From Flavobacterium sp. SH_e (GTDB lineage Bacteria > Bacteroidota > Bacteroidia > Flavobacteriales > Flavobacteriaceae): DNA of 64,000 nt. Shown here piece after piece: positions 4,758 to 64,000 of this stretch. Positions within the stretch are counted from its first letter, which is position 1; every line of letters starts with the position of its first letter. The stretch lies in assembly GCF_025717045.1 (NCBI RefSeq), contig NZ_JAOVZN010000006.1, forward strand, positions 708,269 through 772,268, in the 5' to 3' direction. The notes under the pieces are model-generated. The model worked only from the letters and a program-made list of their open reading frames with translations. It was not told where the DNA came from and made no database searches. The position numbers and the translations under genes are program-made.

Positions 4758-6074
4758 TTAAAAATATCTTACAACTCTAGCTTTAGTTGTACTTTTTTCT
4801 GGAATTTTTGATGTAGAAGTTTTTTCTCCTGTTTTAAAATTAATTGTCGAAACTGCATTTTGATCAATTTCTGTTGAACTCCAATAAATTGACTCTGTAA
4901 AATTACCTAAATTGCTTAAATATAGATTTTTATATATTAGTTCTAATTCATTAGATGAAGGCAAAAACCAATCGCTATAAATATCTTGATTAAAGAATAA
5001 AGCATCTTTAGCCAAAAGAGTTCCGTTATTTAAATTGCTACAAACCGCTGGATTTGCATAGTAGTTGGTTAGATTATCATGATAAATTACAATTTGCGCT
5101 GTATTATAATAACCGCTTCCAATTTCGTTATTTCTTGCTTTTGATATGGATGAAGCCGCACATCCCCATTCTAAATCTTTTAAATCTTTTGATGCAACTT
5201 CTATGTAACGCCACCCAAAACTATATTGGCCTTTGTCATAACAAACAATTCCATTTGCGGGTCCTATATCACCTATTTTGTATGGATATTTAGTCTCGTA
5301 TAGAAGTTCTAGTTTTATGTTTTTATCCAACATTTTTATGGTCATGTTTGTGCCGTTCATTTCAACTTCACCATCAATGCTCCAATATTTAGCTAAATCA
5401 GATTCGCTATCTAAATTTATATTTAGGTGTAACTTATCATCTACAAATAAGAAGAACCATGTTCCGTTATATTCTTGATTATTAAAATAAAAAACTAAAG
5501 TTCCATCTGAGTTTATCAAAAATCGGCCGCTTAAATAAGTGTTTTCATTGGTTTGAGAATAGGTTACTTTCCAGTAATAATCTAATGGTTTATCCAAAGG
5601 CGGAGAAATAATTCCGTTGCAATACGCTATGATATCTTCTCTAGTACAGTTTTTAAGAGCGATATTCAGCTCTGAATTATTATTTACAGAATAAACAGTA
5701 TTATCTGCTAAAGTTGTTGAAATAGGATAACTAATGCTTAAAGATTGATCAGTAGAAAGATTTTCTAAAATTTTACTGAATTGGCTGTCACTCATTATAT
5801 ATTGTATTCCAATAGGATTCTGGTTGCTGTCGTAAACCTTTAAAGATAACGGATAAATAAATTCTACACATGGAGGCGTTTCTCCTTCTTCAAGTGTTTT
5901 TTCAGAAGTTGTATTTTCTAATGTATTGTATAACTCGGAATCTTTTTTAATTAGTTTTCCAAATTCTCCAGTTTCTAAATTAACAGCTTCACGCGGATTG
6001 TCTTGAAATTCGCATCCGTAAAAAATAAAAATGAATAGTAGAAGCACTGTTGCTATTTTCGGAAAGTTTTTCAT
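4758..6074 (-). CDS. Lipoprotein with C-terminal DUF1566-like domain
   Basis: The start chosen at 6074 gives MKNFPKI followed by a hydrophobic stretch and the lipobox-like FYGC, a typical lipoprotein signal; an upstream in-frame ATG at 6167 would read through the terminator at 6155-6188 and is unlikely. The mature 438-residue precursor has an unassigned N-terminal half with a beta-rich middle part resembling a fibrous or lipocalin-like sheet, and a C-terminal half from about residue 265 with IGDIGPANGIVCYD, FGWRYIEVA, WFLPSSNEL and YWSSTE, the pattern of DUF1566/Lcl-like domains. It is probably exported to the envelope. The substrate or partner is unknown. Confidence 0.75.
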   Translation of the reverse strand: MKNFPKIATVLLLFIFIFYGCEFQDNPREAVNLETGEFGKLIKKDSELYNTLENTTSEKTLEEGETPPCVEFIYPLSLKVYDSNQNPIGIQYIMSDSQFSKILENLSTDQSLSISYPISTTLADNTVYSVNNNSELNIALKNCTREDIIAYCNGIISPPLDKPLDYYWKVTYSQTNENTYLSGRFLINSDGTLVFYFNNQEYNGTWFFLFVDDKLHLNINLDSESDLAKYWSIDGEVEMNGTNMTIKMLDKNIKLELLYETKYPYKIGDIGPANGIVCYDKGQYSFGWRYIEVASKDLKDLEWGCAASSISKARNNEIGSGYYNTAQIVIYHDNLTNYYANPAVCSNLNNGTLLAKDALFFNQDIYSDWFLPSSNELELIYKNLYLSNLGNFTESIYWSSTEIDQNAVSTINFKTGEKTSTSKIPEKSTTKARVVRYF

Positions 6075-15526: not shown

Positions 15527-15793
15527 TTATTTTCTGATATTCAATACTTTGATAATCTCACGATATCTGTTGATATCTTTCTTTTTCAAGTAATCTAACA
15601 AAGCTCTTCTTTTACCTACTAATAGGACAAGAGAACGCTCAGTGTTGTAATCGTGACGATTTTTTTTCAAGTGTTCAGTTAAGTGAGAAATTCTATAAGT
15701 GAACAATGCAATTTGACCTTCTGCGCTTCCAGTGTTTGTTGCACCACCGTGTTGTGCGAAAATCTCTTCTTTCTTTTCTTTGCTTAAATACAT
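15527..15793 (-). CDS. rpsO: 30S ribosomal protein S15
   Basis: Small-subunit protein binding the 16S rRNA central domain; 88 residues, the normal length. The family signature is visible as DTGS-like TNTGSAEGQIALFTYRI, HLTEHLKKNRHDYNTERSL and LVGKRRALLDYLKKKD. It starts with ATG at 15793 behind a well matched promoter (15851-15882) and a leader of about 50 bases. It lies upstream of pnp, the rpsO-pnp order found in many bacteria. Confidence 0.98.
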   Translation of the reverse strand: MYLSKEKKEEIFAQHGGATNTGSAEGQIALFTYRISHLTEHLKKNRHDYNTERSLVLLVGKRRALLDYLKKKDINRYREIIKVLNIRK

Positions 15794-15850
15794 TCCAATA
15801 TTATTTTAATGATTTTTATGTATGTCAATACAACTTTTGTAAGACGGGTG

Positions 15851-15882
15851 CAAAATTAGATTAAAAAATCAGAAAAATCAAA
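15851..15882 (-). promoter_or_regulatory. rpsO promoter
   Basis: On the minus strand TTTG (15882-15879) and TAATTTTG (15858-15851) are separated by 20 bases, a full match to the Bacteroidota TTG / TAnnTTTG promoter. It predicts a start of transcription near 15845. Confidence 0.75.
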
Positions 15883-61028: not shown

Positions 61029-62279
61029 TTACAATCCAAATGCAGCTTTTACTTGGTCAACAAAATCAAGTTTTTCCCATGTAAACAATTCAACAGTAAC
61101 TGTTTTTTGGTTTCCTCCTGGAGCAGAGAAAGTTTTAGTTACAGTTTCTGGTTTACGTCCCATATGTCCGTAAGCAGCAGTTTCGCTATAAATTGGGTTT
61201 CTTAATTTTAAACGTTGTTCGATAAAGTAAGGACGCATATCGAAGATAGCTTCTACTTTTTTAGCGATTTCACCGTTTGTTAAGTTAACTTTAGAAGTTC
61301 CATAAGTTTCAATGAAAATTCCCATTGGCTCTGCAACTCCAATTGCGTAAGAAACCTGAACTAAGATTTCGTCAGCAACACCAGCAGCAACTAAGTTTTT
61401 AGCGATATGACGCGTTGCATAAGCAGCACTTCTATCTACTTTGCTTGGATCTTTTCCAGAGAATGCACCACCACCGTGAGCACCTTTCCCACCGTAAGTA
61501 TCAACGATAATTTTTCTTCCTGTTAAACCAGTATCTCCGTGAGGTCCTCCAATAACGAATTTTCCTGTTGGGTTAATATGGTAGTTGATTTTATTGTTAA
61601 ATAAATGAGCGTGCTCTGGGTTTTTAGCGATAATTCTTGGAATCAAGATTTCAACAATATCTTTTTTGATTTTAGCTAACATTGCAGCCTCTTCATCAAA
61701 ATCATCGTGTTGAGTTGAGATAACAATCGCATCGATACGAGTTGGTTTGTTATCGTCGCTGTATTCTAAAGTTACTTGAGATTTAGCATCTGGACGTAAA
61801 TACGTGATTTCTTTATTTTCACGTCTTAAAATTGCTAATTCTTGTAATAATTTATGAGATAAATCTAATGCCAATGGCATGTAGTTTTCAGTTTCGTTTG
61901 TAGCATAACCAAACATCATTCCTTGGTCACCTGCACCTTGCTCTTCTGGCTTAGCTCTGTCAACACCTTGGTTAATGTCTGTAGACTGCTCGTGAATAGC
62001 TGAAAGAATTCCACATGAATTCGCTTCAAACATATACTCACTTTTAGTATATCCGATTTTACGGATTACTTCTCTTGCAATTTGCTGAACATCAAGATAA
62101 GTATTCGATTTTACTTCACCTGCTAAAATAACTTGACCAGTTGTAACTAGTGTTTCGCAAGCTACTTTAGAATCAGCATCAAATGCCAAAAAGTTGTCAA
62201 TTAATGCATCCGAAATTTGATCTGCAACTTTGTCTGGATGCCCTTCACTAACAGATTCTGACGTAAATAAATAAGCCAT
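61029..62279 (-). CDS. metK: S-adenosylmethionine synthetase
   Basis: Cytosolic enzyme making SAM from methionine and ATP, 416 residues, full length. Signatures: [18 protein letters not shown] at the start, [33 protein letters not shown], and [19 protein letters not shown] with the phosphate-binding Lys and Asp. It is transcribed leftwards from a consensus promoter through a probable SAM-II riboswitch, divergent from the metY attenuator region. Confidence 0.98.
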
Positions 62280-62334: not shown

Positions 62335-62364
62335 AAAGGGCTAAAGGAGAGTTCCTGCTTTAGC
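62335..62364 (-). terminator. Possible attenuator terminator downstream of the SAM-II aptamer
   Basis: On the minus strand GCTAAAG (62364-62358) can pair with CTTTAGC (62346-62340), 7 bp, followed by CCTTTTT. The 5' arm is the conserved GCUAAA element of the aptamer, so the two folds exclude each other. The short stem and five-T tail make it a weak candidate. Confidence 0.4.
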
Positions 62365-62457
62365 ATTTTTTACTACTGAAATGAATTTTTCAGCATTCAT
62401 AACGAAATCATTTCATTATGAAGAGGTTGCAATCAGTTCAAATTTTTCCTCTGTTTC
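62355..62457 (-). promoter_or_regulatory. SAM-II riboswitch aptamer upstream of metK
   Basis: Read on the minus strand: stem P1 AGAGG (62452-62448) with CCTCT (62426-62422) encloses AATTTGAACTGATTGCAA, the conserved SAM-II loop (AUUUGAAC...UUGCA). After a variable region holding a TTCATAA/TTATGAA hairpin comes AATGCTAAAGCAGG (62366-62353), matching the conserved AUGCUAAA 3' strand of the pseudoknot. The predicted transcription start (about 62457) falls 5 bases before P1. The match is from memory of the consensus, not a covariance search. Confidence 0.8.
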
Positions 62458-62581: not shown

Positions 62582-62613
62582 TTTGGCCGATCAAAAAATA
62601 GTTCGCAACTTTG
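62582..62613 (+). promoter_or_regulatory. Promoter of the first Met/Cys leader
   Basis: TTTG (62582-62585), 20 bases, then CAACTTTG (62606-62613), one mismatch from TAnnTTTG. It places the start of transcription near 62619, about 18 bases before the leader ATG. Confidence 0.6.
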
Positions 62614-62636
62614 CCACGTTAAAAGAAAAGAAAAAA

Positions 62637-62705
62637 ATGAAATTTACAGTTTGCAATATGATGTCTTGTAAGATGCCGGAATTATCCGCAGAGACACTAT
62701 TGTAG
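62637..62705 (+). CDS. Met/Cys-rich leader peptide 1
   Basis: A 22-codon frame, ATG to TAG, reading MKFTVCNMMSCKMPELSAETLL. It holds four Met (positions 1, 8, 9, 13) and two Cys (6, 11), clustered in the middle. It is followed 26 bases later by a terminator (62732-62761). GCAGAG at 62688-62693, in codons Ala-Glu near the end of the frame, is complementary to CTCTGC (62735-62740) in the terminator's 5' arm, so a ribosome paused at the Met/Cys cluster would leave an antiterminator free to form while one at the stop codon would not. It looks like the translated sensor of an attenuator, not a functional protein. Confidence 0.72.
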   Translation: MKFTVCNMMSCKMPELSAETLL

Positions 62706-62731
62706 TTATTTTTCAAATACTATATATGTAG

Positions 62732-62761
62732 AACCTCTGCCAAATAGCAGAGGTTTTTTTA
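62732..62761 (+). terminator. Attenuator terminator 1
   Basis: AACCTCTGC and GCAGAGGTT form a 9-bp stem with a 6-base loop followed by seven T. No gene ends directly upstream except leader peptide 1. Confidence 0.88.
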
Positions 62762-62811
62762 TGGTCTAAATAAAAGGTTTAGAAAAAAATATAAGAAAAT
62801 TTCAATTTTAA

Positions 62812-62842
62812 TTTGGTGGTTAAATAAATATTACTACTTTTA
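62812..62842 (+). promoter_or_regulatory. Promoter of the second Met/Cys leader
   Basis: TTTG (62812-62815), 19 bases, then TACTTTTA (62835-62842), one mismatch in the last base of TAnnTTTG. Predicted transcript start near 62848. Confidence 0.6.
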
Positions 62843-62885
62843 CTCTATAGAAATAGTCGAGTTTAAAACAAGATAATTTTAAAAC

Positions 62886-62966
62886 ATGAAAACAATAGCA
62901 AAAAGAAATATGATGTGTTGTAAAATGATGCAAATGTGCATCCCTCATTGCTGTTGCCAAAAGTGA
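62886..62966 (+). CDS. Met/Cys-rich leader peptide 2
   Basis: A 26-codon frame, ATG to TGA. Six Met (positions 1, 9, 10, 14, 15, 17) and six Cys (11, 12, 18, 22, 23, 24) make up 12 of 26 residues; key runs are NMMCCKMMQMC and HCCC. Residues NMMCCKM parallel NMMSCKM of leader 1, so the two are probably related. CCAAAAG at 62957-62963, in the last codons, can pair with CTTTTGG (63003-63009) in the 5' arm and loop of the following terminator. This is the layout of a translated attenuator sensing Met-tRNA and Cys-tRNA charging, placed directly before the metY transcription unit. Confidence 0.78.
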   Translation: MKTIAKRNMMCCKMMQMCIPHCCCQK

Positions 62967-62997
62967 AAGAGTAGAATCTTTGTTATAGTTAAGCTAT

Positions 62998-63032
62998 AAG
63001 CCCTTTTGGTCGCCATCCGAAAGGGCTTTTTT
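62998..63032 (+). terminator. Attenuator terminator 2
   Basis: AAGCCCTTT (62998-63006) and AAAGGGCTT (63020-63028) form a 9-bp stem with a 13-base loop and six T. A smaller hairpin, TTATAG/CTATAA (62983-62999), overlaps its first bases. Confidence 0.88.
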
Positions 63033-63058
63033 GTTTCAACACATTTAAAATTAAAATC

Positions 63059-63244
63059 ATGAGAACATTAAATTCAATTGCAGTAGAATATTTATTGAGA
63101 AACGATTCTCAACAAAACAATCATACATCAGAAGAAGTAACAAGAGAAACAACAAGAATAGAAAAAGAACAGAATGTAAAGCAAAAATCTTTACTGTTCC
63201 AGTTGTATGAACTTGAAGAAGAAGTGGAAGAATTCTTTGCTTAA
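63059..63244 (+). CDS. Small protein of unknown function before metY
   Basis: A 61-codon frame with ATG start, 26 bases after terminator 2 and 76 before metY, same strand. The protein is highly charged and hydrophilic, with a Thr/Glu-rich middle and the acidic end ELEEEVEEFFA; no signal or membrane segment, no Cys. I do not recognise it. Its position inside the attenuated transcript makes it a likely real gene linked to sulfur metabolism, but it could also be a second untranslated leader. Confidence 0.5.
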   Translation: MRTLNSIAVEYLLRNDSQQNNHTSEEVTRETTRIEKEQNVKQKSLLFQLYELEEEVEEFFA

Positions 63245-63320
63245 AACTTCAAATTATAAAATTTCAAAAATCAATTACAATATATAATAGTATTAACAAT
63301 ATTTAAAAAACTAGGAAATC

Positions 63321-64000
63321 ATGAGTACACAAAAATTTGCAACAAACGCACTACATGCAGGACACGATGTTACTAAAAATGCAGGAACAAGAGCTGTACC
63401 TATTTATCAGACATCATCATACGTATTTAATAACGCAGATCACGCTGCCAATTTATTTGGTCTTGCTGAAGCTGGATTTATTTACACAAGATTAAATAAC
63501 CCAACAAACGATGTTTTGGAACAGCGTTTAGCTGCGCTCGAAGGCGGAATTGGAGCTGTAGTTACGGCTTCTGGAGCATCGGCAATTTCAACAACTTTAT
63601 TGACTTTGCTTAAAGCAGGAGATCATATTGTTGCTTCAAACAGTTTATATGGAGGAACTTATAATCTTTTAAAAGTTACTTTACCAAGATTAGGAATCAC
63701 AACTACATTTGTTGATCCTTCAAAACCTGAAAACTTTACCAAAGCAGCAAAAGAAAATACAAGAGCATTTTTTGTTGAATCTCTTGGAAATCCAAAATTA
63801 GATATATTGGACTTAAAAGGAATTTCGGCGGAAGCCAAAGCATTCAAAGTGCCATTTATAGTAGATAATACAGTTGCGACACCTTATTTATTGAACCCAA
63901 TTAAATATGGTGCCGATATTGTAATTCACTCCTTAACTAAATATATTGCTGGAAACGGAACTTCATTAGGAGGCGTTATCATTGATGCTGGAAACTTTGA
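63321..64000 (+). CDS. metY: O-acetylhomoserine sulfhydrylase (aminocarboxypropyltransferase), 3' end outside window
   Basis: First 226 residues of a PLP-dependent Cys/Met metabolism enzyme that makes homocysteine from O-acetylhomoserine and sulfide. MSTQKFATNALHAGHD, GTRAVPIYQTSSYVF, YTRLNNPTNDVLEQRLAALEGG, VTASGASAIS and the PLP lysine region IVIHSLTKYIAGNGTSLGG fit the MetY group. It continues beyond base 64000. It lies downstream of the two Met/Cys leader-peptide attenuators. AGGAAATC precedes the ATG. Confidence 0.93.
   Translation, partial: MSTQKFATNALHAGHDVTKNAGTRAVPIYQTSSYVFNNADHAANLFGLAEAGFIYTRLNNPTNDVLEQRLAALEGGIGAVVTASGASAISTTLLTLLKAGDHIVASNSLYGGTYNLLKVTLPRLGITTTFVDPSKPENFTKAAKENTRAFFVESLGNPKLDILDLKGISAEAKAFKVPFIVDNTVATPYLLNPIKYGADIVIHSLTKYIAGNGTSLGGVIIDAGNF

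Follow-up and report, generated by a model that had tools for sequence, protein, structure and literature searches.

Introduction

The trp-type attenuators of Proteobacteria (trpL, hisL, pheL, ilv and thr) have a common anatomy: a short open reading frame (ORF) carrying codons of the pathway, alternative 1:2, 2:3 and 3:4 helices, and an intrinsic terminator before a biosynthetic gene. Known regulators of bacterial methionine genes are SAM and SAH riboswitches, T-boxes, MetJ/MetR and SahR. In the Salmonella mgtCBR leader (PMC3641672), two short ORFs stand in tandem; mgtP senses Pro-tRNA through its codons, and the leader responds to two signals, ATP and proline. In Mycobacterium and other Actinobacteria, cysteine leader peptides place runs of Cys codons before sulfur genes (PMC1262725; Canestrari 2020, via PMC13236596); they lack a conserved terminator hairpin, and Met-codon sensing is not reported for them. 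Within Flavobacterium, a study of F. psychrophilum (PMC9723704) gives strong clues for leader-peptide attenuation before amino-acid operons and, in its main text, names conserved or structured 5' elements before hisG and pheA. The text of a report on the Xanthomonas met 5'UTR (PMC6230763) does not mention a leader peptide.

Here we analyse a window of 64,000 nucleotides from Flavobacterium sp. SH_e (contig NZ_JAOVZN010000006.1, forward-strand positions 708,269 to 772,268), in which two short frames precede metY. Considering the frames, pairing arms, covariation, spacing and gene-matched codons observed here, we conclude that these are very probably two tandem ribosome-mediated transcription attenuators of the trp type. 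The metY units differ from their proteobacterial counterparts in their Met plus Cys codons, in the Bacteroidota host, in an arm 2 that lies inside the ORF, in the tandem arrangement, and in being reused with other codons before many sulfur genes. The tandem ORFs resemble those of mgtCBR, but the two metY frames are alike in the amino-acid classes they encode, and each is followed by an intrinsic terminator of its own. Cys codons before sulfur genes are shared with the actinobacterial leaders, but on an unrelated RNA. The F. psychrophilum study concerns the same genus, but its main text has no Met/Cys units, no tandem and no mechanism.

Results

Two leader units precede metY

The first-pass annotation of this DNA had placed two plus-strand units, each a short frame followed by a terminator, before metY, and their coordinates are correct (Table 1). 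Its counts of six and twelve Met or Cys residues in ORF 1 and ORF 2 hold with the start Met included, the NMM[SC]CKM core is present in both peptides, and a promoter-like sequence of the Bacteroidota type lies ahead of each frame, as it had proposed. The alternative helices described below, the decisive element, were absent from it. In a local scan, six terminator-like sites were found where 1.1 were expected. A search of the plus strand from 62582 to 63320 against Rfam gave no riboswitch or T-box; the matches were the SAM-II riboswitch on the minus strand and the S15 leader elsewhere. The SAM-II element brings RNA control of the Met pathway into the same intergenic region, but it is a ligand aptamer on the opposite strand and does not precede metY.

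Table 1. Features of the metY leader region and other annotated elements, in window positions
Feature	Position	Strand	Basis or remark
metK	61029-62279	minus	divergent from metY
SAM-II riboswitch, upstream of metK	62350-62457	minus	Rfam match
S15-Flavobacteria ribosomal protein leader	15791-15858	minus	Rfam match
Promoter-like P1, TTTGG-N-AACTTTG, Bacteroidota type	62582-62613	plus	consensus match
Leader ORF 1, MKFTVCNMMSCKMPELSAETLL, then stop	62637-62705	plus	conserved in relatives
Unit 1 outer arm 1, TGCAATA	62652-62658	plus	pairs with 62698-62704; covariation
Unit 1 inner arm 1, overlapping last Met codon	62674-62680	plus	pairs with 62685-62690
Unit 1 arm 2, GCAGAG, antiterminator, within ORF 1	62688-62693	plus	pairs with terminator 5' arm; covariation
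Unit 1 outer arm 1', TATTGTA, at ORF 1 stop codon	62698-62704	plus	pairs with 62652-62658
Terminator 1, arms 3 and 4 (arm 3 core 62735-62740; U-tract to 62761)	62730-62757	plus	terminator scan, covariation
Promoter-like P2, TTTGG-N-TACTTTTA	62812-62842	plus	relaxed consensus match
Leader ORF 2, MKTIAKRNMMCCKMMQMCIPHCCCQK, then stop	62886-62966	plus	conserved in relatives
Unit 2 arm 1, CAATAGCAA	62893-62901	plus	pairs with 62948-62956
Unit 2 arm 2, TGTTGCCAAAAGT, antiterminator, containing last Cys codons	62952-62964	plus	pairing with terminator
Terminator 2, arms 3 and 4 (arm 3 core 63003-63009; then U-tract)	62998-63028	plus	terminator scan
61-aa ORF between terminator 2 and metY	63059-63244	plus	conserved as protein in clade
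metY, O-acetylhomoserine sulfhydrylase, running off the window	63321-64000	plus	TIGR01326, 649 bits

Alternative helices covary across relatives

The 3' end of ORF 1 (GCAGAG) is complementary to CTCTGC of terminator 1, and that of ORF 2 (CCAAAAG) to CTTTTGG of terminator 2, forming a 2:3 antiterminator in each unit. In unit 1, CCGGA or GTGG, located at the last Met codon, forms an inner 1:2 helix with the TCCGC of arm 2; the Met/Cys codons are enclosed by an outer helix (TGCAATA:TATTGCA) that closes this hairpin. The corresponding partners in unit 2 are codons 3-5 (ACAATAGC) and GCTGTTGC. An antiterminator and a masking upstream arm in each unit thus give the full trp-type layout in both, with all four parts present: a codon-rich short ORF, a 3:4 terminator, a 2:3 antiterminator, and a 1:2 protector overlapped by the control codons. 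The folding z-scores of the whole leaders with their terminators are -4.8 and -4.1.

These alternative pairings covary within the Flavobacteriaceae. Across 30 unit-1 loci, 91.7% of cells are paired in the outer helix, with five of its six pairs changed on both sides, 91.6% in the antiterminator, and 98.9% in the terminator, where six of nine pairs covary; sliding the partner by 1-3 columns left 24-65% paired. The 2:3 counts are low estimates because MAFFT places arm 2 one base off in some of the rows; a swap test was added for this reason. Coordinated changes are visible in Christiangramia and relatives, where CGCAGCG occurs with CCGCTGC and GCAGCGG, in F. succinicans and one metagenome-assembled genome (two loci), where CCTGCGGG occurs with CTCCCGC, and in two loci from metagenome-assembled genomes (L044, L052), where the outer helix has become AACAATA:TATTGTT. 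In the swap test, native antiterminator arms bound at -12.6 kcal/mol against -8.9 for swapped arms in unit 1, and at -10.0 against -8.0 in unit 2; native arms were stronger in 376 of 449 unit-1 and 825 of 980 unit-2 comparisons between dissimilar loci; since the loci are related by descent, these comparisons are not independent. The 1:2 helices behaved likewise (-7.6 against -4.7 in unit 1, -11.0 against -7.1 in unit 2), and a clear 1:2 pairing is missing in some unit-2 loci.

The distance from the A site to the leading edge of a ribosome is about 14-15 nt. In most unit-1 loci, 14-15 nt separate the last Met codon from arm 2, and there are 11-14 nt from the end of arm 2 to the end of the stop codon. 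This is the spacing of a trp-type attenuator, in which arm 2 is freed when the ribosome stands at the control codons and covered when it has reached the stop codon.

The frames are conserved as codons

ORF 1 is kept in 34 relative metY loci and in a further seven relatives with a TonB receptor gene after it, and ORF 2 in 55 relative metY loci; the units are absent from the metY loci of Winogradskyella and Aquimarina. Start, stop and Met/Cys codons are retained across relatives; the reading thus passes a refuting check named by the first-pass annotation, namely loss of the frames or of their Met/Cys codons in relatives. In the unit 1 loop, Met occupies positions -4, -1 and 0 in 30/33, 30/33 and 33/33 loci; positions -3 and -2 are Cys or Met in most, with synonymous TGT/TGC changes and exchanges between ATG and TGT. 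The core codons of unit 2 are 28% Met and 15% Cys. Among aligned loci, 86% of gap runs in unit-2 ORFs are divisible by three; the figure is 4% for the spacer and 24% for the upstream flank. Past the last Met, the RNA CCGCAGAG is kept but its frame is not, so that the tail reads PQR or SAE. The final Cys-Cys-Cys of ORF 2 lies inside a pairing arm and is Tyr, Arg or Ser in relatives; because they are within arm 2 and replaced in this way, these terminal Cys codons are mainly structural.

The same RNA precedes other sulfur genes with other codons

A covariance model built from metY unit 1 alone matched in 110 of 120 Flavobacterium genomes (E <= 0.01). In a sample of the order (296 genomes, E <= 1e-5), matches came from 34 Flavobacterium genomes and four genomes from three other genera of the family. 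We surveyed the downstream genes in 13 genomes with several matches. RNA of the unit-1 type precedes metH (leader MTKTRLNMAMMMMW..), metZ (..MMMQMMMMW.., ..NMMAFMMMW..), metX (..NMMAMM..), cysE (leader MKFTCCNKCACMG..), cysH (..ITCCFMG.., ..NMCCCMG..) and also a TonB receptor gene. Codon identity tracks the downstream gene, with Met for metH, metZ and metX, and Cys for cysE and cysH. Leaders of cys genes hold 18 Cys and 11 Met, against 12 Cys and 57 Met for met genes (Fisher p 3e-5; per leader, Mann-Whitney p 9e-4), p values that are indicative only because the comparison is post hoc and the leaders are related by descent. Met/Cys codons are scarce in the loop of some leaders of this type, as in MKFNICHTFYFMWKTSAGVTVD; these leaders stand ahead of OsmC/homoserine dehydrogenase and Opp-like ABC transporter genes, at loci L258, L259, L261, L262, L271, L264 and L280.

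A scan of the own genome recovers further leaders

We scanned 2.63 Mb, half of the genome that contains the window, for short ORFs that stop shortly upstream of a terminator and whose 3' end is able to pair with the 5' arm of that terminator, and ranked them by the residue bias of the codons ahead of the pairing arm. Among 990 terminators there were 67 leader-like candidates, of which metY unit 2 ranked first (7e-10) and metY unit 1 third (6e-5); with these ranks, an origin of the frames as chance ORFs was rejected. The second rank went to a Met/Cys leader, MNNYYRCSMMCCDAIMVFVDLAYI, followed by a terminator directly before metN, metI and metQ (L180:12900-13056, minus strand, C1), a methionine transporter named from sequence. 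The fifth was a leader with WWW, MRTILNNTWWWNNLRQTS, with a terminator before trpE (L183:17171-17300, C1), a candidate classical attenuator in Flavobacterium. A Met leader at a Met transporter and a Trp leader at trpE provide independent support, since the scan was blind to downstream genes. Leaders resembling MNNYYRCSMMCCDAIMVFVDLAYI also occur at L228 and L229, and two genomes from a different family in the order have them as well (L232, L233). The pattern MMCC has three matches in the own genome, namely metY unit 2, the metNIQ leader and one inside dxs, which was set aside as chance.

In the same gene cluster as metY, a second tandem pair of leaders with terminators (MNLKVNKMFCAISVITEAGLSIA and MNKSLQMNKMFAVALICVHVCRY) stands before metX-thrA (L082:4381-4687; C19:774380-774686) and is conserved in the F. 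johnsoniae-like clade. Upstream of the metE-like and metF genes of the own genome, no leader was found.

Promoters and order of the units

Judged by eye, almost every locus with unit 1 has a recognisable P1-like sequence, and P2-like sequences are confined to the F. johnsoniae-like clade. In most of the distant relatives, unit 2 begins 30-60 nt past terminator 1 with no promoter visible between, so that one transcript would meet two attenuators; series action looks ancestral. Seven relatives, the strong matches of a search whose cut-off of E 1 also gave many chance rows, carry a TonB-dependent receptor gene between the two units, so that in them unit 1 appears to act on the receptor gene and unit 2 on metY. 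In close relatives this gene is found at L003:1-2412, L023:3-2309 and L234-L240, and it is a candidate for a sulfur- or methionine-regulated TonB receptor. The window species is without it and keeps both promoter-like sequences.

Discussion

We infer from this anatomy how translation, stalling, termination and the direction of the response would run in the cell. RNA polymerase would transcribe the leader with a ribosome trailing on the short frame. When charged Met-tRNA, together with Cys-tRNA, is ample, the ribosome would reach the stop codon and cover arm 2, thus allowing 3:4 pairing and termination before metY. When Met or Cys is scarce, it would stall at the Met/Cys codons and mask arm 1, leaving arm 2 free to pair with arm 3; the terminator would then be blocked and metY expressed, along with the following homoserine dehydrogenase gene, provided that the two are co-transcribed. 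Without a ribosome, arm 1 would pair with arm 2 and termination would be favoured. The main signal would be Met, with Cys as a subordinate one. The earlier proposal that translation of Met and Cys codons exerts the control gains support from the covarying antiterminator and protector helices and from codon identity tracking the downstream gene. The mechanism assumes transcription-translation coupling in Bacteroidota, for which the trpE leader argues. Counting against this reading are the leaders poor in Met/Cys codons ahead of OsmC/homoserine dehydrogenase and Opp-like transporter genes, the metY loci of Winogradskyella and Aquimarina, which have no such units, and the unit-2 loci in which 1:2 pairing is not clear.

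Other explanations of the locus need to be weighed. The peptides might be functional small proteins, for example Cys-rich ones handling metals or sulfur, whose genes end in ordinary terminators. Cys-rich small proteins are common, and much of Flavobacterium shares the Met/Cys core; however, the residues past the last Met vary freely as one RNA is read in different frames, that RNA pairs with the terminator and covaries, Met and Cys interchange at one site, and the codons change with the downstream gene, which makes this reading very improbable. A riboswitch for SAM, Met or homocysteine that overlaps the short frames by chance would likewise explain a conserved, covarying RNA, and the divergent metK does have a SAM-II riboswitch. 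We give it hardly any weight, as no Rfam family lies on the plus strand, the unpaired loop is conserved as in-frame codons, with unit-2 indels in threes, and not as an aptamer, and the loop flips between Met and Cys codons with the gene.

It is also conceivable, but most unlikely, that the ribosome controls translation or mRNA decay rather than transcription termination. The mycobacterial cysteine leader peptides lack conserved terminators (PMC1262725) and translation attenuation is reported for them (PMC13236596). At the metY locus, however, the alternative helices target the terminator arm and not the metY start about 290 nt away, and strong intrinsic terminators with U-tracts occur in every unit found, terminators having been required by the search.

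The tandem units may not always act together. The first-pass annotation had proposed two attenuators in series; this stands for P1 transcripts, which would pass both terminators, but not as a strict rule, since the P2-like sequence in the window species would let P2 transcripts pass unit 2 alone. Its idea of a stepped, combined response of the two units is plausible; ORF 1 and ORF 2 each mix Met and Cys codons. As to its claim of novelty, a partial search of the literature returned no description of Met-codon attenuation, nor of Met plus Cys attenuation in Bacteroidota, but leader-peptide attenuation for amino-acid operons in flavobacteria had already been suggested in general terms in PMC9723704, whose main text does not name Met or Cys.

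Beyond metY, we favour with moderate confidence the view that one RNA chassis has been copied before most sulfur amino-acid genes of Flavobacterium (metY, metX, metZ, metH, cysE, cysH and the TonB receptor) and retuned by swaps of Met and Cys loop codons, with tandem copies giving a graded or combined logic; this would be a codon-programmable attenuation regulon. Naturally occurring swaps, with Met at metH and Cys at cysE and cysH, offer a ready test of codon-programmed regulation. To our knowledge, transcription-translation coupling has hardly been tested in Bacteroidota. The units make it testable whether ribosome and polymerase are coupled closely enough for attenuation there, and what kind of response arises when two attenuators of similar specificity act in series.

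No Pfam or NCBIfam family matched the ORF that separates terminator 2 from metY. It would encode a small protein of about 60 aa with the pattern M[KN]TL..IA..YLLR...SLLFQ[ML]Y.LEEE, and a similar-looking ORF lies before metX (L082, approximately 4771-4974).
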